DNA of 39,171 nucleotides from Bacillota bacterium (GTDB taxonomy: Bacteria > Bacillota > Sulfobacillia > Sulfobacillales > JAIMBI01): the NCBI GenBank assembly GCA_021846505.1, contig JAJZWV010000038.1:1-39171 (forward strand), in the 5' to 3' direction. The first letter of the stretch is position 1, and each line of letters opens with the position of its first letter. Below are positions 411 to 39,171 of this stretch, one piece after another. Position numbers and translations under genes: made by a program. The notes beneath the pieces were generated by a model. The model was not told the DNA's origin. It saw nothing but the letters and a program-made list of their open reading frames with translations, and ran no database searches.

Positions 411-439
411 TTGACAGGGCTTGGGCGCCGCGGTAGCAT
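411..439 (+). promoter_or_regulatory. Sigma-A-type promoter of the riboswitch/Ehr operon
   Basis: A perfect -35 box TTGACA (411-416) is followed by a 17-base spacer and the -10 box TAGCAT (434-439, four of six consensus bases). Transcription would start near 446, about 20 bases before the fluoride aptamer. That leaves a leader of about 150 bases before the first gene. Confidence 0.65.
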
Positions 440-461
440 AACCGAGTTGAGAGCGAAAGCG

Positions 462-525
462 CGAAGGCGATGGAGACCGCCGGGGCTTTGCCCAAACTGC
501 CGGATTCCGGCTAATGACTCCTACT
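462..525 (+). promoter_or_regulatory. Fluoride riboswitch (crcB motif) aptamer
   Basis: The leader carries the hallmark segments of the fluoride aptamer in order: GGCGATGGAG (466-475), the closing CGCC (478-481), AAACTGCC (494-501), a hairpin GCCGG-ATT-CCGGC (499-511) and TAATGACTCCTAC (512-524). GGCG pairs with CGCC, and GGAG (472-475) pairs with CTCC (518-521). From memory, the order and bases closely follow the Thermotoga petrophila and Bacillus cereus fluoride aptamers. One difference is an extra small hairpin GGGC-TTT-GCCC (483-493) between the first stem and AAAC. The 3' strand overlaps an intrinsic terminator, so fluoride binding should switch transcription on. It lies directly before the hydrogenase-4-like operon. 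A covariance-model search (Rfam crcB family) would settle the call. Confidence 0.87.
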
Positions 526-562
526 GGCCACGCGGGTAAGCGTGGAAGTAGGGTTATTTTTT
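520..562 (+). terminator. Riboswitch expression platform: intrinsic terminator
   Basis: CCTACT (520-525) pairs with AGTAGG (547-552) and CCACGC (528-533) pairs with GCGTGG (540-545) around the loop GGGTAA, with small internal bulges. The stem is followed by GTTATTTTTT (553-562). The first bases of the stem (CCTAC) are also the 3' strand of the aptamer. Aptamer and terminator are therefore mutually exclusive: with ligand the terminator is blocked, without it transcription stops before the first gene at 600. Confidence 0.82.
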
Positions 563-599
563 GCGCGGAAGCGGGAAGAGCAGGGAAGGGGAGAGGCGC

Positions 600-1532
600 G
601 TGCCCATCGTGGCGCAGGTGCTCCAGGTTCTGTTTGTGCTGGCGTTTGCCCCGCTTTTAAAAGGCATCATGGATCGGGTCAAGGCACGCGGCATGCGCCG
701 GCAGGGGCCGCCGTGGCTGCAGCCCTATCGCAATCTGTGGAAGTGGGCCCACAAGCACGTTGTGCGGAGCCCCTATGCGACCGGGCTGGCCGATTGGGTG
801 CCGGTGCTGTACTTCACAGCTCCGCTGGTGGTGACCCTGCTTATTCCGGTCCTCACGACGATGCCGCTGCCGCTGGCGTTTATGGCCGACATTCTGGGTG
901 GCGGCCTGATCCTCGCCGGTGCCGGCTTCCTGCTGCTGTTTTATGCCCTCGACTCTGGCAGCGCCTATGCCGCCATCGGGGTGAGCCGCATCCGCCTCAT
1001 TGGAACCCTGGGAGAGCCGCTAGCGGTGATGGCCGTGTTCACGGCGGCAGCGGTGGGACAGTCCACCATCCCGTACGTGGTCAACCAGGCGTTTTATGCT
1101 CGCGGCTTCTTTACCCCGGCGCATCTATTGGTGCTGCTGGCGTGGCTGCTGCTGCTGCTGGCGGAGGCCGGGCGCCTGCCTGTGGACAATCCCGATTCGT
1201 CCCAGGAGCTTTCGCTCATCGACCCCAATAGGGTTTTTGAAGCCAGCGGCCCCGACCTGGCGCTGCTGGAGTGGGGCGGCTGGATGAAGTACACCGTGCT
1301 GTCCATCATCCTTGTGAACGTGCTGGGCTGGCCGGTGGGCCTCGCGGCGGTGCTGACGCCGGGAGCTTTGGCGCTGGCGGTGGCCGTGACGGCGGCCAAG
1401 CTCGTGGCCGTGGGCCTTTTGGTGGTGGCCATCGAGCTGTCGTTTGCTAAGTTGCGCTTGATGCGCATTGCGGAGTACCTGACGCTGTCCGTGGCGATTG
1501 CTGCGCTGGCGGCCCTGGCCGCTGGCCTGTAG
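600..1532 (+). CDS. HyfC/NuoH-like membrane subunit of Ehr-type complex
   Basis: This 310-residue polytopic membrane protein belongs to the NuoH/HyfC/HycD family, the subunit that links the soluble electron-transfer arm to the ion-pumping arm in complex I and group 4 hydrogenases. Features include an N-terminal helix, the segment GVSRIRLIGTLGEPLAVM, the acidic stretch RLPVDNPDSSQELSLID that matches the family's 'PFDxxEAExELV' loop, and FAKLRLMRIAEYL near the C-terminus. The GTG at 600 is chosen because AAGGGGAGAGG lies just before it. A TTG at 561 would start inside the terminator U-tract. It is the first gene of a six-gene operon and lies directly under the fluoride riboswitch. Confidence 0.85.
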   Translation: MPIVAQVLQVLFVLAFAPLLKGIMDRVKARGMRRQGPPWLQPYRNLWKWAHKHVVRSPYATGLADWVPVLYFTAPLVVTLLIPVLTTMPLPLAFMADILGGGLILAGAGFLLLFYALDSGSAYAAIGVSRIRLIGTLGEPLAVMAVFTAAAVGQSTIPYVVNQAFYARGFFTPAHLLVLLAWLLLLLAEAGRLPVDNPDSSQELSLIDPNRVFEASGPDLALLEWGGWMKYTVLSIILVNVLGWPVGLAAVLTPGALALAVAVTAAKLVAVGLLVVAIELSFAKLRLMRIAEYLTLSVAIAALAALAAGL

Positions 1533-1665
1533 GCTAGCCGGCTAGGTGCCGAGACGCCAAGCCACGGACTTGGTGCGGCACGGCCGGAATCGCCCGACAC
1601 AGCGCGAAAAGGCGCTGAAGCTGGCGGGGCGGCGTTGCGAAGAGTGAGAGTGAAGGAGGGGCGCT

Positions 1666-2286
1666 ATGCCCGTGTGGCTCGTGCATCCCACCGTGATGGC
1701 AGAGGCGGGCGCGGCTGTCGTGTGGCTGAGCGCCAACCTGATCGCCCTGGCGCGGCGGCCCGGGACGGCCCTCGGCTGGTACACGGCGGCCGGGGTGGTG
1801 GAAGGGGTGTTGGCCATCATCTGGGGCGTGAGCCACCACCAAGCCGCCTGGTGGGCCATCGGGGTGGTGTGGATCGCGGCCAAAGGGGGCGTCGTGCCCC
1901 GGTGGCTGGGAGGGGCGCTGCCGGCCGACCGGTGGGAGTTGGTGGCCGCAGGCACCCCTCGGCTCATGCTGGGCAGCGCCCTGCTGGCGGTGGTGGCGAT
2001 CGCAGCCGCGGGCCCTGCGGGCTTGGCGCTGGCGGCTTTGGCGACGCCGTTTTGGCTCTTGACGCAGCGGCGCGAGCTGTGGGTGGCGGCGGTGCTCCTG
2101 CTCGAAGCCGAAGTGGCCCTGGGATTTGTGGCACTGGGTGCCCACGTGGCACCCGCCGCGGCCGACGTGCTGGACGTGGCCGAGGTGGTGTGGGCCACGG
2201 GCCTGCTGGCGTGGCTTCTGCGGCGGGGGCGCTTGGACTGGGATGAGCCGATTCACACCACGGCGCTGCGGCGCTTGAGGGGGTAA
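1666..2286 (+). CDS. HyfE-like membrane subunit
   Basis: This is a 206-residue hydrophobic protein with about six predicted membrane segments. It sits between HyfC-like and HyfF-like genes, where hydrogenase-4 operons carry hyfE (NuoK-like C-terminal half). The C-terminal part (VLLLEAEVALGFVAL and DVAEVVWATGLLAWLL) resembles the NuoK-like region with its buried acidic residues in membrane helices. The start ATG has AAGGAGGG six bases upstream. The gene ends three bases before the next start, so translation is probably coupled. Sequence similarity in this family is low, so the name rests on both position and hydropathy. Confidence 0.72.
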   Translation: MPVWLVHPTVMAEAGAAVVWLSANLIALARRPGTALGWYTAAGVVEGVLAIIWGVSHHQAAWWAIGVVWIAAKGGVVPRWLGGALPADRWELVAAGTPRLMLGSALLAVVAIAAAGPAGLALAALATPFWLLTQRRELWVAAVLLLEAEVALGFVALGAHVAPAAADVLDVAEVVWATGLLAWLLRRGRLDWDEPIHTTALRRLRG

Positions 2287-2289
2287 ACC

Positions 2290-3606
2290 ATGCTGGTGTG
2301 GCTGCCAATGGGATGGGTGGTGGCGATGGGCGCGGTGGCGTCCGCTCGCGGGCGGTGGCCAGTGGCCGCGGCGGCTGGCACGGCGGCCATGGGGGCGCTG
2401 GATGTTGTGCGGGCGGTTCGGCACCCGGCGTGGGCCAGCGAGTATGGGGCGCTGGTGCTGGTGCTGACCACGTTCGCCTTGGTCATGTCGCCGGGCTACT
2501 TTAAGGGGGCGGCGGCCCACCACCCCTGGCCGGCCGCGCGCGAGCGGTGGTACTACGGCTGGCTGGGCGCCTTTGCGGCCGCCCTGCTGGCGCTGGCGGC
2601 CCCCTGGCCGCTGGTGGACCTGTGGGTGGCGGTGGAAGCGACCACCCTGTCTTCGGTTCTCTTGGTGGCTCTGCCGCCGGGCGCCGGGCCTTTTGAAGCC
2701 TCTTGGAAGTATCTCACCCTCGCCATGCTGGGAGGTTTGCTGGCGCTGGGCGGCATCTTGATGCTGCAGAGCGGGGCGGCGTCCGACATCGCCGTCGGTG
2801 CTCTGCTGATGCTCGTGGGCTTTGGCACCAAAGCGGGCCTCGTGCCTTTTCACACCTGGCTGCCGGATGCCCACGCAGAGGCGCCTGCCCCGGTGTCGGG
2901 GCTGCTGTCGGGGGCGGAACTGGGCGGCATCCTCATCGTGGCCTGGCGCGGGCTGACGCTGGCGCAGCAGCTGCTGCACCAGCACTGGCCGCTCATGGCG
3001 CTGCTGGGCCTGGGTCTGCTGTCTCTGCTGGTGGGGGTGGCCCTGATTTCCCGCCAGCACAATTTGAAGCGCCTGTTGGCGTACTCGTCGGTGGAGCACA
3101 TGGGGGTCATCGCGGTGGGACTCGCGTTCGGCGGCCCCGCCCTCTTGGGGGCGTTTCTGCACGTGTTTACCCACGGGCTCGCCAAGAGCCAGGCCTTTTA
3201 CCTGTCGGGCTCGGTGCAAGCCCACTATGGCACGGTGGACACGCGCGAGATTCGCGGCTTGGCGCAAGAATTGCCCTGGACCGCCACGGGATTGGTGGTG
3301 GCGATTGGCGCGCTGGCCGGCCTGCCGCCGCTGGGGCCGTTTTGGAGTGAGTGGCTGGTGATTCAAGGAGGATTGGCCGAGCCGGGGATGGCCCCGTGGG
3401 CGGCCCTGACCGCTATCTTGCTAGCCGGGGGGTTTGTGGCGCTGATGTATCGGCTGCCGCGCCTGTGGCAGGGGCGTCCGTCCAAGGCCCCGCCGGGGCG
3501 CGAGGCGCAGTTGCTGCCCCTGCCGGTGCTGATGATGTCGGGGCTGACAGCATCGGCTGGAATCGTGGTGCCGTGGCTGTTTTTGGGCTTGGGGAGGGGG
3601 ATGTAG
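2290..3606 (+). CDS. HyfF/NuoN-like antiporter-type proton channel subunit
   Basis: This 438-residue protein belongs to the Mrp antiporter-like family (NuoL/M/N, HyfB/D/F). Diagnostic segments are GFGTKAGLVPFHTWLPDAHAEAPAPVS, with the conserved Lys and His of the channel, and HNLKRLLAYSSVEHMGVI, with the second Lys and the TM12 region. It is one of two antiporter-type subunits in the operon and would translocate H+ or Na+ when driven by electron transfer. It is shorter than NuoL and lacks its long C-terminal lateral helix, as HyfF does. A GAGGGGG site precedes the ATG, and the gene is followed at once by the large-subunit gene. Confidence 0.85.
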   Translation: MLVWLPMGWVVAMGAVASARGRWPVAAAAGTAAMGALDVVRAVRHPAWASEYGALVLVLTTFALVMSPGYFKGAAAHHPWPAARERWYYGWLGAFAAALLALAAPWPLVDLWVAVEATTLSSVLLVALPPGAGPFEASWKYLTLAMLGGLLALGGILMLQSGAASDIAVGALLMLVGFGTKAGLVPFHTWLPDAHAEAPAPVSGLLSGAELGGILIVAWRGLTLAQQLLHQHWPLMALLGLGLLSLLVGVALISRQHNLKRLLAYSSVEHMGVIAVGLAFGGPALLGAFLHVFTHGLAKSQAFYLSGSVQAHYGTVDTREIRGLAQELPWTATGLVVAIGALAGLPPLGPFWSEWLVIQGGLAEPGMAPWAALTAILLAGGFVALMYRLPRLWQGRPSKAPPGREAQLLPLPVLMMSGLTASAGIVVPWLFLGLGRGM

Positions 3607-3608
3607 CC

Positions 3609-4982
3609 GTGGCAGACTGGTCGGTGGAGATGGTCCGGGACACAGGGGGCGCGGATGCGCTGGCGGATGTGCTGAGCCAGCTCGCCGCTGAAGGGTCCCC
3701 GCTGGTGCACGCCTTCGTCGGGACGCGGGGGCTCACGCTGGTGGTCCCATCCCGCCATGGCCACCACCCGGAAGAAGTCGCGGTGGGTGCTGGGCCCTTC
3801 AGCCGCCCGACGCGGGCTGGCCATGAGCTGTTTGGCGGCTTAGAGCACAACCTGCCGCCGTCGATATGGCGGCATGCCAGCCGCCGGCGGCCCGTGCGCG
3901 GGCGCGGCTTGCACCTGATGCCGCTCGGCCCGGTGCGCGGGGACGTGTCGGAGTCGCTGGCGTATCAGCTGGTGGTGCTGGGTGATGAGATCCACCACGT
4001 GCGACTCCGGGCGGGGTACAAGCGCCGCCATGTGGTGCAAGCCATGGCCGGCGCGGAGATTGACGCGGCGCTGCTGGTGGCGGAGCGCGTGACCGGCACC
4101 TCGCCGGTGGCCCATGCCCTGGCCTTTTCGGAGGCGGCCGAAGAAGCCCAGGGCCGCGCCGTGTCCGGTGATGACCGGCGCGCCCGCGTGGTGCTGGCCG
4201 AGCTGGAGCGCATCACCAGTCACGTGGGCGACTTGGCGCTGCTGGCCGCCTCGACCGGCACGGTGGCGGCTGCGGCCGATTGGCTGCGCATCAAAGAGCG
4301 GCTGCTGCGATATCAGGCGGAGCTGACGGGCCATCGCTACCTGCGCGGCGTGGTGGCGCCCGGCGGCCTCCACCACCCGCTGTCGGGGAGCCTCGGCGAC
4401 TTGGGGGCCTTGCTGAAGGCGATAGCGGGCCAAGTGCGCGACATCGCCGGCGCGCTGGAGCGAACCAACAGCTACTTGGACCGGCTGCACAACGCCGGGC
4501 GTCTCCCGGTGCATGCGGATGGGGCGGTGTATTGGACCGGGTTTGTGGGCAAGAGTGCGGGGCTTCGGCGCGACTGGCGCTGGGACCGGCCGTATGCCGG
4601 CTACCAGGGGATCACCGCCCAGATGCTGCCGGTGTCGCTGGATCGGCCTGATGCGTATGGGCGGGCGCGCGTGCGGCTGGAGGAAATCCAGCAAAGCGTG
4701 GCCCTGGTGGAGCGGATGCTGGCCAGCGAGGCCCCGGCGGCGAGGAAAATGCGAAGCGCTGGGCGCGCGGGCGTGGGCTATGGCTTGGTGGAGGCCCCGC
4801 GCGGGCGACTCTGCTACCGGCTTGAGCTTGAGGGCGGCCGGGTGCACGCCGCATCGGTCACAACGGCGTCGCAGCTCAACTGGCCGGCGGTCCCCCTGGC
4901 GCTGGAGCAGCACAACATCTTGCAGGACTTTCCCATCATTGACGCCAGCTTCAGCCTGGCGGTGGCGGCGCTGGATTTGTAG
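3609..4982 (+). CDS. HyfG/NuoCD-like large subunit lacking NiFe ligands (Ehr type)
   Basis: This 457-residue protein combines a short NuoC-like N-terminal region (about 1-130, ending near RPTRAGHELFGG) with a NuoD/HycE-like domain. The proximal motif that is ERxCxxC in hydrogenases reads ERVTGTS here (residues 159-165; Thr162 and Ser165 in place of Cys). The distal DPCxxC motif reads DASFSL (445-450). All four NiFe-binding cysteines are therefore absent, although the surrounding family signature (HALAFSEAAE, ELERITSHVGDL, QDFPIID) is kept. The protein cannot hold a standard NiFe site and fits the Ehr group between complex I and group 4 hydrogenases. The GTG at 3609 follows a GGAGGGGG site that lies inside the preceding gene's end. 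Confidence 0.85.
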   Translation: MADWSVEMVRDTGGADALADVLSQLAAEGSPLVHAFVGTRGLTLVVPSRHGHHPEEVAVGAGPFSRPTRAGHELFGGLEHNLPPSIWRHASRRRPVRGRGLHLMPLGPVRGDVSESLAYQLVVLGDEIHHVRLRAGYKRRHVVQAMAGAEIDAALLVAERVTGTSPVAHALAFSEAAEEAQGRAVSGDDRRARVVLAELERITSHVGDLALLAASTGTVAAAADWLRIKERLLRYQAELTGHRYLRGVVAPGGLHHPLSGSLGDLGALLKAIAGQVRDIAGALERTNSYLDRLHNAGRLPVHADGAVYWTGFVGKSAGLRRDWRWDRPYAGYQGITAQMLPVSLDRPDAYGRARVRLEEIQQSVALVERMLASEAPAARKMRSAGRAGVGYGLVEAPRGRLCYRLELEGGRVHAASVTTASQLNWPAVPLALEQHNILQDFPIIDASFSLAVAALDL

Positions 4983-5045
4983 CGGGCCAAGAGGGATGAG
5001 GGATGCCGGCAACACGCACCGCAGACGCAGTCAGGAGGAATGGCA

Positions 5046-5585
5046 ATGTTTTACAAGCGGTGGCTGATCCACTACTTGCAGCGTCCGGCGGTGACGAGCT
5101 TCCCGCGCGGGGCGGACGGGGCGGCGCCGGCCCACGCGCCGCAGGATGTGGCGCCGGACAAGCTGTTTCGCCAGTCGCTGGCCCTCCGGCAGCTGGACGG
5201 GGGCTCCTGCAACGGGTGTGAGGCCGAAATTCAGCTCCTGGGCAGCCCCGTGTATGACCTGTCGCGATTTGGCTTCACCCTGTCTCCGTCTCCCCGCCAC
5301 GCCGACTTGCTGCTGGTGACGGGGGTGGTGACAGAGGCCCTGGTGCCAGTGATTCATGCGACGTACGAGGCCATGCCGGAGCCTCGGCTGGTGGTGGCGG
5401 TCGGTGCGTGCGCCACGGAGGATGGCGGCGTGTTTCGCGGCATGCCGGGGGCGGTGGGCCGCTTGGACGGTGTCGTGCCGGTGGCGGCGCGCATTCCCGG
5501 CTGCCCACCCACCCCCAACGATTTGCTGGCGGGTTTGCTGGCAGCCGTCGGGCGCCCAGCAGCCCTGGCTGCGGAGGCGCGCTGA
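5046..5585 (+). CDS. HyfI/NuoB-like Fe-S small subunit
   Basis: This 179-residue protein is of the NuoB/HyfI type, which holds one [4Fe-4S] cluster next to the large subunit's active cavity. The four cluster cysteines are present: Cys55 and Cys58 (GGSCNGCEAE), Cys122 (VGACATEDG) and Cys153 (PGCPPTPNDLL). AGGAGG at 5033-5038 is 7 bases from the ATG at 5046 but only one base from an in-frame ATG at 5040, so the start at 5046 is preferred. The last codon overlaps the next start (TGATG). The conserved cluster next to a large subunit without NiFe ligands suggests electron transfer to something other than protons. Confidence 0.88.
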   Translation: MFYKRWLIHYLQRPAVTSFPRGADGAAPAHAPQDVAPDKLFRQSLALRQLDGGSCNGCEAEIQLLGSPVYDLSRFGFTLSPSPRHADLLLVTGVVTEALVPVIHATYEAMPEPRLVVAVGACATEDGGVFRGMPGAVGRLDGVVPVAARIPGCPPTPNDLLAGLLAAVGRPAALAAEAR

Positions 5586-7570
5586 TGCTGGCGGTTCTGG
5601 TGCTGGGCCTCTTGGTGGCCATCGGGGCGGCCATCGGCCTGCTGCATGCCGGCGGCGCGGCGGCCCCGTGGAAGCGGCGGCTCGCGGTGGCGGCTTGGGG
5701 GCTTTTGGCGGTGGCGGGTGCGGTGGGCCTGGCTTGGCGGAGTGGGCCGGTGCGGTGGGCCACCCCCGTGGGCGCGGTCGGCTGGCACGTGGGTCCGTGG
5801 GTAGCGGGCTGGCTCCTGCTCATCGGCGCGCTGGGTGCGCTGGCCGTCAGCACGCGAGCGGCCAGTGGGGCGGCGGGCGGCGAGCTCACTGCGGCCGGGT
5901 GGCTGGCTATCGGGATGGCGGGGCTGCTCAGCGCCGCCGATCCGCTGGCGCTGGTGCTGGCGTGGGGCATCGTGACCGCGGCCGCCTACGGGACGGTGGT
6001 GGCGGGGGCCCACCGAAGCCGCGTCCTGGCCGCGGGCTGGGTGCTGCTCGTCATGAATGAGCTGGGAACAGCGGCCCTCATCGTGGGTGCCATTGTGCTG
6101 GCCACTCATGGCCCGCGCGGAGCCGCGGGCGACGTGGCGGCCCTGTTGGGCCTCTTGGGACTGGGCGCGAAGACCGGCCTGTTTCCGTTCCAAGTGTGGC
6201 TGCCGGTGGCGGAACCCGAGGCGCCCGGGGTGGTTGCTGGCGTGCTGTCCGGGGTGACCACGGCGGCTGTGATGGTGGCGCTGGCCCAGTGGTACGCCTG
6301 GGCGCACCCAGACCTGACGGTGGGATGGATCACGGTGGGGCTGGGCGTGGTGGGCGGCGTGCTGGGCGCTGTGCATGCGGCGCTGGATCATGATGTGAAG
6401 CGTGTGCTGGCTTATTCTACGGTCGAGTGGATGGGCCTCGGCTCCGCGCTGCTGGGCCTCTCGGTGGTGTTTGTGCGCGCCGGCGACCCGGCGCCGGCGG
6501 GGGTGGCGCTGGCGGCATTTTATGCCGTGGCGCTCATGCATCTGGGAGCCAAGACGGCCGCGTTCGGGGTCGCGGGCTGGGTGGAACAGGGCGGCGGCGG
6601 CCGGCGCCTGGACGCCCAGGGCGGCTTGTTTCGGCGGGCCGGCTGGCTGTCGCGCTGGGCACTCATTGCCATCATCGCGCTGATGGCGCTGCCTCCGACG
6701 GGGGGCTACGTGGCGGAGTGGCTGTCGCTGGAGTCGGTGTTCATGGAGAGCGCCGGGCCGCTTCGGCCGCCGCTGGTGGTGGTGGGCATTTTGCTGGCAC
6801 TGTTGGCGGCCGCGGGCGCCACCGCCATGCTGCGCTGGTACGGGGCACTGTTTTTAGGTCCGCCGCGCGGGCGGAAGCTGCCGCGCCGGCCAGCGGCCGG
6901 TGATGTGCGCTTGGTCGGTGCGGGGGCGGCACTCGCGCTGGCGGGCGGCATCGGAGTCGGCTGGTGGCTTCCGTGGGCGGGGCACTGGGCCCCTCCGCTG
7001 GCGAACCAGCCGCTCCTGCGGCACTTAGTGGCACACACCTTCGTCAGCCACCCCGCTCCGGCGCTGCTCGTGTCGCTGGGCGGGCGCGCGTGGGCCGGAC
7101 TCCCGGGATCTCCCGGCGCGATTGTGTTTCCGGGCCCTGGGTTTACCGCCACCGCGCCCTGGTACCTGCTGTGGTTTGGGGGGGCCATGGTGGTGGCGGT
7201 CGCATGGGCGCGGCGCGCCTGGATGCGGCGCCACCAGCTGACGGTGCGCCACACCGCGCCGTGGTCGGGTGGCTCGCACTATCGGCGCGAGCATGCGTGG
7301 AGTGCCACCGCGCTGACCCACCCGCTGCGGCTCGCGTTTGCACCGCTCATTCGCCTGCAGCGGCGGCGCACCGAAGGCACCAGCGTGCGCATTGAAACGG
7401 ACATCGCCGACCGGCTGCTGGAGCAGGGCATGCGGCCCCTGCTGCGCTTGGTGGGCCGCGCGGCCGACGCGCTTTCCGCCACCGAGTCGGGATTGGTGAG
7501 CCACTACGTTCTCTACGTGCTGGGCGCCCTGGCGCTCGGGCTCGTCGCGCTGAGGATAGGCGGCGGGTAG
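5585..7570 (+). CDS. HyfB/NuoL-like antiporter-type subunit
   Basis: This 661-residue polytopic protein of the NuoL/HyfB family is the second antiporter-type subunit of the complex. It shows GLGAKTGLFPFQVWLPVAEPEAPGVV, with the channel Lys, and DHDVKRVLAYSTVEWMG, with the second conserved Lys. The C-terminal third extends beyond the core and ends with an amphipathic stretch and a final hydrophobic helix (YVLYVLGALALGLVALRI). The start overlaps the stop of the HyfI-like gene by one base. It is the last gene of the operon. No ferredoxin-like subunit (HyfA/HyfH), formate dehydrogenase or hyp maturation gene follows, so the complex encoded here has only six kinds of subunit. Confidence 0.87.
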   Translation: MLAVLVLGLLVAIGAAIGLLHAGGAAAPWKRRLAVAAWGLLAVAGAVGLAWRSGPVRWATPVGAVGWHVGPWVAGWLLLIGALGALAVSTRAASGAAGGELTAAGWLAIGMAGLLSAADPLALVLAWGIVTAAAYGTVVAGAHRSRVLAAGWVLLVMNELGTAALIVGAIVLATHGPRGAAGDVAALLGLLGLGAKTGLFPFQVWLPVAEPEAPGVVAGVLSGVTTAAVMVALAQWYAWAHPDLTVGWITVGLGVVGGVLGAVHAALDHDVKRVLAYSTVEWMGLGSALLGLSVVFVRAGDPAPAGVALAAFYAVALMHLGAKTAAFGVAGWVEQGGGGRRLDAQGGLFRRAGWLSRWALIAIIALMALPPTGGYVAEWLSLESVFMESAGPLRPPLVVVGILLALLAAAGATAMLRWYGALFLGPPRGRKLPRRPAAGDVRLVGAGAALALAGGIGVGWWLPWAGHWAPPLANQPLLRHLVAHTFVSHPAPALLVSLGGRAWAGLPGSPGAIVFPGPGFTATAPWYLLWFGGAMVVAVAWARRAWMRRHQLTVRHTAPWSGGSHYRREHAWSATALTHPLRLAFAPLIRLQRRRTEGTSVRIETDIADRLLEQGMRPLLRLVGRAADALSATESGLVSHYVLYVLGALALGLVALRIGGG

Positions 7571-8113: not shown

Positions 8114-8340
8114 GGCGTCCGGCCTCCTTCGTCACCTGCTGGCCCTCACCATATCACCGGCAAGACGCGACCCGTGGGAGCAGGGGGGATGCCGATCCGC
8201 TCGTGGATGCGGGCCATCTCCTCGACCGGGCGCCGCAAAAAATCTTCCCGCTGCGGGAATCCGCCGCCAACCTTGACACGGTTTGCGCGTTGAATAGGGC
8301 GGCAGGGGGCCCGGCCAAGGCTCGGGACGGAGGTGGCAGG

Positions 8341-8898
8341 CTGGCGCGGCCAAGCGACGGGGACATCGCCGATTGGGTGGAGCGGTGGGGCGACCGCTTG
8401 GTCGGCTTTGCCTGGACGTATCTCCACGATGCCGAGCTGGCGCAGGACGTGGCCCAAGAGACGTTCCTGCGCTTGGTGAAGGACCGGCGGCGCATGGCGC
8501 GCCGCGAGGTTCACCCCGGCTGGCTGTTTGCGGTCGCGCGCCGAATTTGCCTGGACCACCTGCGTCGGCCGGCAGCGAGAACGCTGCCCGGGGCGGAGGT
8601 CGCCGATCCGCACTCCGCCAAGGCGTTTCTGGCCGTCGACGTGGAATCGGTGCTGCGTCAGCTGAAGCCGGCCGACCGTGAGTGCCTGTGGCTCTTTTAC
8701 TATGGGGGGCTGTCGGTTGCGGAGATTGCCCAGCTGCTGGGCATTCCCCCCGACCGCGTCAAGGCGCGCCTGTATCGCGCGCGCCAGCGCTTCGGCGCCG
8801 AGTGGCGGGCAGACGAGGCCGAGCGCCCAGCGGCTGGAGGTCGTCCTCGCGCGAACCGCCCCCCTAAGCGGCGCGCCCGATCCCGAGCCGATGGGTAA
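8341..8898 (+). CDS. ECF-type RNA polymerase sigma factor
   Basis: The protein has the ECF layout: region 2 (GDRLVGFAWTYLHDAELAQDVAQETFLRLVKD), then the WLFAVARRICLDHLRR segment, a short linker and region 4 with a helix-turn-helix (LKPADRECLWLFYYGGLSVAEIAQLLGI, DRVKARLYRARQRF). It would direct RNA polymerase to specific promoters under control of an anti-sigma factor. The start is unusual: the best ribosome site, GGAGG (8329-8333), points to CTG at 8341. Other in-frame starts are TTG 8290, which has no ribosome site, and GTG 8377, which cuts close to region 2. The next gene, 31 bases downstream, probably encodes its membrane regulator. Confidence 0.85.
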   Translation: MARPSDGDIADWVERWGDRLVGFAWTYLHDAELAQDVAQETFLRLVKDRRRMARREVHPGWLFAVARRICLDHLRRPAARTLPGAEVADPHSAKAFLAVDVESVLRQLKPADRECLWLFYYGGLSVAEIAQLLGIPPDRVKARLYRARQRFGAEWRADEAERPAAGGRPRANRPPKRRARSRADG

Positions 8899-38455: not shown

Positions 38456-39171
38456 GTGCGCCATGAAGCTGGCTGCACAGAGTTGGTGCGATTCCAACCG
38501 CCGAAGGGGTAGCCGCCCACGGCGAAGCGAGTCTGGCGGGGCCGTCCGCGAGGACGGTCGCGAAGCGTAGACAGCGCGACGACCAGGCCGCAACCCGCAA
38601 GGGTGAAGCGATGGAGCCTCGTAAGAAGATGATCCGAGGGCCGACGGGCGGGGAAACCCGGAAGGCAACAACAAGCATCCGGTATAGGCGAGGATGCGGT
38701 GACCTCGGCGGGGTCGCCGAGCGCGGCAGGGCGGAAAGCTGGGCCGTCGGAACAGGGGAGACCTCCCGGGGTCGCGCAAGCGTATGCCGCACCCCAGGCG
38801 AAGGCCCGAGGGCGGCAAACGCGCCGGGAGGAGTCGGAGGACGGCATAGGACGCGGAGCGCGGGAAAGCCGCGTACAGGGGGAAGGCCGTCCGCGGTGTC
38901 CGCGGTCCCGTCCCGTCGAGTCCCTCACGCAGAGGAGGAATACGAAACGTACGCTGGATGGGATCGCATCGCCGCACGGGCGCAGGCGGCGCCGCACGAG
39001 CGGTTCACCGCCCTGGCCCATCACCTCACCGAGGAGTTCCTGCGCGACCCGTATCTCCTGATGAACCGCCACGGCGCCCCGGGCGTGGACCGGGTCCGCA
39101 GGACAACCTATGGCCAGCACCTGGAGGACCGGCGGGCGGACCTGGTGGCCCGCCTGAAGCGGGGCGCGTAT
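38456..39171 (+). mobile_element. Group II intron, 5' part
   Basis: The likely 5' splice site is GTGCG at 38456-38460. Downstream are domain I features common to bacterial group II introns: CGAAGCGTAGACAGCGCGA (38560-38580), AACCCGCAAGGGTGAAGCGA (38590-38610), GGAAACCCGGAAGGCAACAA (38650-38670), GCATCCGGTATAGGCGAGGATGCGGTGACC (38675-38705) and GTCGGAACAGGGGAGACC (38745-38765). An intron-encoded reverse transcriptase begins inside it. The 3' end lies beyond the window, so the insertion target and splicing ability cannot be judged. Confidence 0.85.
38896..39171 (+). CDS. ltrA: Group II intron reverse transcriptase/maturase (partial)
   Basis: The first 92 residues of the intron-encoded protein are visible before the window ends. 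AGWDRIAARAQAAPHERFTAL followed by YLLMNRHGAPGVDRVRRTTYG and LVARLKRGAY is the conserved RT-0/RT-1 start, as in 'PGVDGVT..EY...L...L..LK.G.Y'. The GTG at 38896 is the likely start, with GGGGGAAGG nine bases upstream. The protein would splice and mobilise the intron. Confidence 0.85.
   Translation, partial: MSAVPSRRVPHAEEEYETYAGWDRIAARAQAAPHERFTALAHHLTEEFLRDPYLLMNRHGAPGVDRVRRTTYGQHLEDRRADLVARLKRGAY

Follow-up and report, generated by a model that had tools for sequence, protein, structure and literature searches.

Introduction

The fluoride riboswitch (crcB motif) was reported near genes for 'formate hydrogen lyase' in 2010 by Weinberg (PMC2864571), and a review of the field also names a riboswitch-associated 'formate hydrogen lyase' (PMC11139923). 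The association has been noted ever since, it has been called one of the most common for this RNA, and it is still unexplained. In Bacillus cereus, binding of fluoride to the crcB switch prevents termination of transcription (PMC10687018). HF that enters the cell makes the cytoplasm more acidic and reduces the proton-motive force, and among riboswitch-linked genes the Na+/H+ antiporters are second in frequency to the exporters (PMC11139923). Fluoride toxicity is also a major challenge in bioleaching (PMC12831704).

Here we describe an operon in a window of 39,171 nucleotides, by which we mean the whole stretch of DNA that was analysed. It makes up contig C113 of a bacterial genome of 3.58 Mb in 119 contigs that is 96% complete. 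An initial annotation, made from the letters of the DNA, had proposed that a fluoride riboswitch controls an ion-pumping complex at this locus, recalling a link of the crcB motif to formate-hydrogenlyase-like genes; the published report confirms that this link is real (PMC2864571). The acidophilic setting that it assumed for the host was graded as plausible, the relatives being Sulfobacillus and other metagenome-assembled genomes (MAGs) of Bacillota.

Results

The riboswitch and the six-gene operon

The leader of the operon is, by homology, a fluoride riboswitch (Table 1). A search with the Rfam covariance model, which the initial annotation had suggested as a check, was done with cmscan and gave a match on the forward strand that covered the full model (positions 1–64) and scored 47.9 bits against a gathering threshold of 34. 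In the folding prediction a hairpin at 514–557, followed by a U run, takes up the 3' strand of the aptamer, ACUCCUACU. Because the hairpin uses this strand, aptamer and terminator are predicted to be mutually exclusive, and therefore fluoride binding should prevent termination. The hairpin was missing from the output of a simple terminator scan, probably because its stem is bulged. A near-textbook aptamer had been annotated at 466–524 and an overlapping intrinsic terminator at 520–562, and these coordinates were correct to within a few bases.

Right behind the riboswitch we found the six-gene, Ehr-type operon that had been described there, with all genes in the same direction (600–7570) and in the order hyfC-E-F-G-I-B-like. 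The expected Pfam matches were obtained for five of the six genes (NuoH/HyfC, two PF00361 subunits, NuoD-like and NuoB-like), and the HyfE-like gene stands second. Neither CrcB nor CLC is among the six genes, in agreement with the earlier statement that the operon contains no fluoride exporter. The next gene past the operon encodes a GNAT acetyltransferase on the opposite strand. Shortly 3' of the operon region the window contains an ECF sigma factor gene (8203–8898, + strand), and near the contig end a Group II intron (D1D4-6, RF02005, 129.3 bits) was found at 38489–38723 on the + strand.

Table 1. Features of the riboswitch-controlled operon, in window coordinates.
Feature	Position	Strand	Evidence and remarks
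Sigma-70 promoter-like site, TTGACA-17-TAGCAT	411–439	+	10/12 matches; 0.1 expected in shuffles
Fluoride riboswitch aptamer (core ~466–524)	457–530	+	RF01734, 47.9 bits, E 2.1e-10
Predicted intrinsic terminator overlapping the aptamer 3' strand, then U run	514–562	+	MFE -24.5 kcal/mol, z -3.6
hyfC/nuoH-like membrane subunit	600–1532	+	PF00146, 80.7 bits; GTG start at 600 after AAGGGGAG
hyfE-like multi-helix membrane subunit	1666–2286	+	Without Pfam match; place kept across loci
hyfF-like antiporter-type ion-translocating subunit	2290–3606	+	PF00361, 146.7 bits; channel residues conserved
hyfG-like large subunit, all NiFe-ligand cysteines lost	3609–4982	+	GTG start at 3609; predicted fold similar to HycE/NuoD
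hyfI/nuoB-like small subunit	5040–5585	+	Four N2-type [4Fe-4S] cysteines retained
hyfB-like antiporter-type subunit; closes the operon	5585–7570	+	PF00361

The large subunit

HyfG aligned with HycE of the E. coli formate hydrogenlyase (FHL) and with NuoD of complex I. The closest solved structure is that of HycE, which was also the best match of the predicted HyfG structure (pLDDT 89), and the fold is retained together with invariant Glu, His and Arg residues. HycE has RVCGICG as its first NiFe motif; this motif reads RVTGTSP in the window, and the C-terminal CxxC motif is replaced by IDASFS. The NiFe ligand cysteines were absent from every HyfG sequence of the family (101/101). Loss of these cysteines is a known mark of Ehr. 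Judged by its subunits Hyf B, C, E, F, G and I, all present, and by the missing NiFe ligands, the complex is assigned to the Ehr/hydrogenase-4-related class.

The resemblance to HycE, together with the published name of the riboswitch-associated genes (PMC2864571, PMC11139923), would fit a hydrogenase or formate hydrogenlyase by which the cells turn to fermentation when fluoride blocks glycolysis. However, the [NiFe] site is gone from the family, and the complex is therefore not a formate hydrogenlyase. Furthermore, no formate dehydrogenase or ferredoxin-type subunit is encoded in the operon, and the same six-gene set was found in other phyla. HypD was detected neither in the host's own genome (96% complete) nor in G001–G004 or G006, and it is absent from most genomes of the order that carry the complex. 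Given that the cysteines are lost and that the modules and HypD are missing, we ruled out this function as very improbable.

Respiratory complex I was rejected as well, its modules and quinone residues being missing. In the alignment the GPQHPSTHG motif of complex I corresponds to GPVRGDVSE in the window, and the position of the quinone-site Tyr is not kept.

The membrane subunits and the small subunit

The ion-channel residues of the two antiporter-type subunits were nearly invariant in the family. K181, K260, H295, K299 and E354 were found in 78/78 F subunits, and K196, H319, K323 and E378 in 75/75 B subunits, with K272 in 74 of them. The Glu in TM5 was present in 73/78 F subunits and 66/75 B subunits; the window B subunit has a Gly in this place. 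Such conservation is expected of the Ehr/hydrogenase-4-related class, and the window departs from it in the TM5 Glu of B. The predicted model of HyfE was helical and resembled NuoJ weakly: Foldseek gave no significant match for it, and comparison with structures in VIA-align gave middling Z scores only, NuoJ being among the entries.

The window HyfI keeps four N2-type cysteines. Among 98 I subunits the fourth cysteine was replaced by Asn, His, Gln or Asp in 21, and in 16 of those 21 a Cys is located seventeen columns earlier. The retained cluster bears on the reading that the complex acts as a redox enzyme with some further partner, such as one that oxidises ferredoxin at N2 and pumps ions, and so sustains electron flow while fluoride inhibits other enzymes. 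Most members, including that of the window, retain the N2-type cysteines, and HyfG keeps its fold with the invariant Glu, His and Arg. Weighed against this, the operon contains no gene for a donor or acceptor, the aligned positions hold no equivalents of the His and Tyr at the quinone site of complex I, and the replaced fourth cysteine (21/98) makes redox-driven pumping questionable in part of the family. We regard a redox enzyme of this kind as possible but doubtful.

Linkage of the riboswitch to the complex

The host's own genome contains two fluoride riboswitches, and both head operons of this kind. Following the suggestion in the initial annotation to compare the operons of related genomes, we examined an order-level set of 61 relatives, in which the family was defined as the 50 HyfG homologues scoring at least 155 bits. 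The riboswitch was located 2.0–3.8 kb upstream of hyfG on the same strand in 45 of these 50, or 45 of the 47 that could be assessed. Of the other five, three are too close to the end of a contig to be assessed, whereas the second copy in G006 and the member from G052 are without a riboswitch; the tree places the G052 sequence outside the clade. Upstream of the lower-scoring, more distant Hyf/Nuo homologues in the order, a riboswitch was found in 0/18 cases.

A HyfG profile scan of ~85,000 species genomes, which was blind to riboswitches, revealed relatives outside Bacillota in Pseudomonadota, Acidobacteriota, Planctomycetota, Nitrospirota, Thermodesulfobacteriota, Myxococcota, Verrucomicrobiota, Lentisphaerota, Actinomycetota and Chlamydiota. 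A riboswitch was present in 38/40 of the non-Bacillota host genomes. By coordinates, it lay 2.5–4.8 kb upstream in 28 of the 32 loci that had enough upstream sequence, a count in which contig identity was deduced from matching coordinates and which does not include Chlamydiota. In three of the four others (L205, L232 and L242) the aptamer is placed farther upstream, with a dynamin-like or enolase gene in between. Direct cmscan of twelve non-Bacillota loci detected the aptamer on ten, these three included; at L206 and L236 it was below the gathering threshold or beyond the stretch scanned.

Among 295 genomes of Nitrospirota the family occurred in four, with the riboswitch 3.6–3.7 kb upstream in 4/4, one of which was already part of the non-Bacillota count. 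The other HyfG-like copies in this phylum, which are cousins of the family, had a riboswitch within 12 kb in 0/39 cases, and 21 of their genomes do contain a riboswitch. The NiFe cysteines were also absent in the 26 cousins inspected (L312–L337), a sister group that shares a C-terminal NKSF.LSY.G.D motif. It is therefore this clade that the riboswitch link marks, and not NiFe-less relatives in general. In the tree, which was built with a quick method and has some long branches, the riboswitch-linked sequences formed one clade of 91 with an SH-aLRT of 97. It consists mainly of a Sulfobacillales branch, to which the window belongs, and a pan-bacterial branch that includes the second copy of the host.

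The pairing of the riboswitch with the NiFe-less complex is thus a rule across about ten phyla, and this recurrence strongly supports the earlier claim that an Ehr-type complex is under riboswitch control. That the operon is not regulated by fluoride and lies next to the riboswitch by chance, or next to a decayed one, was ruled out by the linkage among assessable loci (45/47 in the order, 28/32 outside Bacillota and 3/3 further loci in Nitrospirota) and by its absence from the outgroup complexes; its probability is negligible.

Fluoride exporters in genomes with the complex

Fluc (PF02537) was found in none of the seven genomes of the host's taxonomic family (G000–G006). Within the host's genus, no riboswitches were found other than those in front of two of the complex operons. 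CLC genes are present in the genus without a riboswitch link and with the motif GREGP, which presumably differs from the CLC-F type motif. The CLC gene of the host's own genome (C57, L164 ~3700–4700) is broken across reading frames, either as a pseudogene or through an assembly error. A CLC protein as the exporter of the genus was disfavoured, the own copy being broken and the intact copies having GREGP, although the motif comparison is not decisive. Fluc and CLC were both absent, with the complex present, in G004, G018, G025 and G057, and outside the order in G078, G085 and G091. In G018, G025 and G085 the complex operon stands behind the only riboswitch found. The earlier idea that an exporter draws on a gradient made by the complex is a poor fit for the host's genus, where neither Fluc nor a riboswitch-linked exporter was found.

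An alternative is that fluoride is extruded by the complex itself, as F- or HF and with or without coupling to H+/Na+, and that the complex replaces Fluc/CLC-F in some lineages. Such a role would agree with the lack of Fluc in the family (7/7), with the position of the riboswitches in the genus, with the seven complex-bearing genomes without Fluc or CLC, three of which have a single riboswitch, and with the GREGP motif. The antiporter-type subunits of the complex I/hydrogenase-4 superfamily, however, move H+ and Na+, and to our knowledge none of them moves F-. Fluc and the complex occur together in many hosts, sometimes in one operon, which suggests complementary roles. Absence is no proof in genomes that are mostly incomplete MAGs, and unrecognised exporters, for example MFS proteins under riboswitch control, could be present. 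We consider extrusion by the complex to be unlikely; if true, it would represent a third kind of fluoride-resistance machine, complex-I-like in build, standing in for Fluc/CLC-F in lineages such as the host's genus.

Neighbouring genes

At other loci the operon adjoins crcB, DUF190, MutS-like, enolase, MFS and antiporter genes, in one run in L211, L212 and L229. Elsewhere in the order the riboswitch targets are enolase, pyrophosphatase, CrcB, DUF190, pairs of MutS-like proteins, MFS and YaaH. We concluded that this neighbour set is the known fluoride regulon and that the complex is a regular member of it.

Several other genes under fluoride riboswitches were observed. Dynamin-like GTPase genes are located in or beside riboswitch operons (L205:600–2378, L232, L154), twice directly ahead of the complex. 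A riboswitch-controlled family of ~310 aa (L146:8811–9749, L081:4200–5120, L077) had no Pfam/NCBIfam match and carries a C-terminal WH[IV]AGLTG motif; it heads the second riboswitch operon in the Fluc-less genomes G004 and G006. Directly behind fluoride riboswitches we also found a family of ~168 aa with nine members (L137:2616–3122), likewise without a Pfam/NCBIfam match. MutS domain V-like ATPases, arranged as tandem pairs, stand under fluoride riboswitches (L152:5951–7480 and a cluster of 37) and are not true MutS at the NCBIfam cut-offs. One genome of the same order (G034) has fifteen fluoride riboswitches spread over several contigs.

Discussion

In this study we verified that the operon of the window belongs to a riboswitch-linked family, and its function can be proposed from the class of the RNA and from the make-up of the complex. 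In the absence of fluoride the leader terminator would form and transcription would stop. With Mg-fluoride bound, the aptamer would hold its 3' strand, the terminator would fail and the six genes would be transcribed. The product would be a membrane complex of the hydrogenase-4/complex I superfamily in which the ion-translocating arm and, in the window, the N2-type cluster are kept. We propose that under fluoride stress it exports H+ and/or Na+, and that this outward pumping may counter the acidification and the loss of membrane energy caused by HF entry. The function suggested in the initial annotation, restoring an ion gradient, is likewise an inference. A fluoride-induced, H+/Na+-translocating complex of this kind is the reading towards which we lean, with moderate confidence. 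An intact ion-translocating arm under fluoride induction would serve the same end as the Na+/H+ antiporters, and this appears to be the simplest interpretation.

Some observations count against an ion pump. The six-gene operon contains no electron-input module; the complex may be fed with electrons straight at its N2 cluster, or it may have become a secondary transporter. The TM5 Glu is missing from the window B subunit, and the second-copy complex in G006 is without a riboswitch of its own.

Since switch and pump are paired again and again across about ten phyla, we see in the complex probably a machine dedicated to fluoride stress and not a 'formate hydrogenlyase'. No NiFe-less, fluoride-linked complex was found described in the literature searched, and as far as that literature shows, a discrete NiFe-less family that is nearly always riboswitch-controlled across about ten phyla is new. 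With a discrete family that lacks the hydrogenase site and is wired to fluoride, a misleading name gives way to an object that can be tested. If our reading is true, a large, energy-linked membrane complex is devoted to a single toxic ion, and this perhaps explains how organisms that have no known exporter, among them acidophiles of bioleaching, tolerate fluoride.

Compared with the riboswitches described near FHL genes, the window shares the RNA class (crcB motif, RF01734) and the predicted transcription-termination architecture. The association with Hyf/Hyc-type genes is common to the published 'formate hydrogen lyase' genes and the operon studied here, but the name misfits the present complex, in which every NiFe ligand and all formate and ferredoxin modules are gone. 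The fluoride-linked Na+/H+ antiporters (CPA), Fluc and CLC-F probably serve the same physiological purpose and often share the riboswitch or the operon, whereas their proteins are unrelated to the six-subunit complex. Respiratory complex I has homologous NuoH, NuoD, NuoB and NuoL/M/N-like subunits with the channel residues. In contrast to it, the window complex is without the NADH module and NuoI, and the quinone-binding His/Tyr have no counterparts in the alignment.

With Ehr and hydrogenase-4 (Hyf) the complex shares the subunit set C, E, F, G, I and B. Hyf-like copies without a riboswitch in related genomes have the order B-C-E-F-G-I and keep CYSC; in Sulfobacillales such a separate complex (L296–L305) has a degenerate RVCGADS motif next to the kept CYSC. 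In contrast to Ehr/Hyf, the window family forms a clade of its own with the order C-E-F-G-I-B, bears a QDFPI...F.LS signature at the C-terminus and is placed under a fluoride riboswitch.
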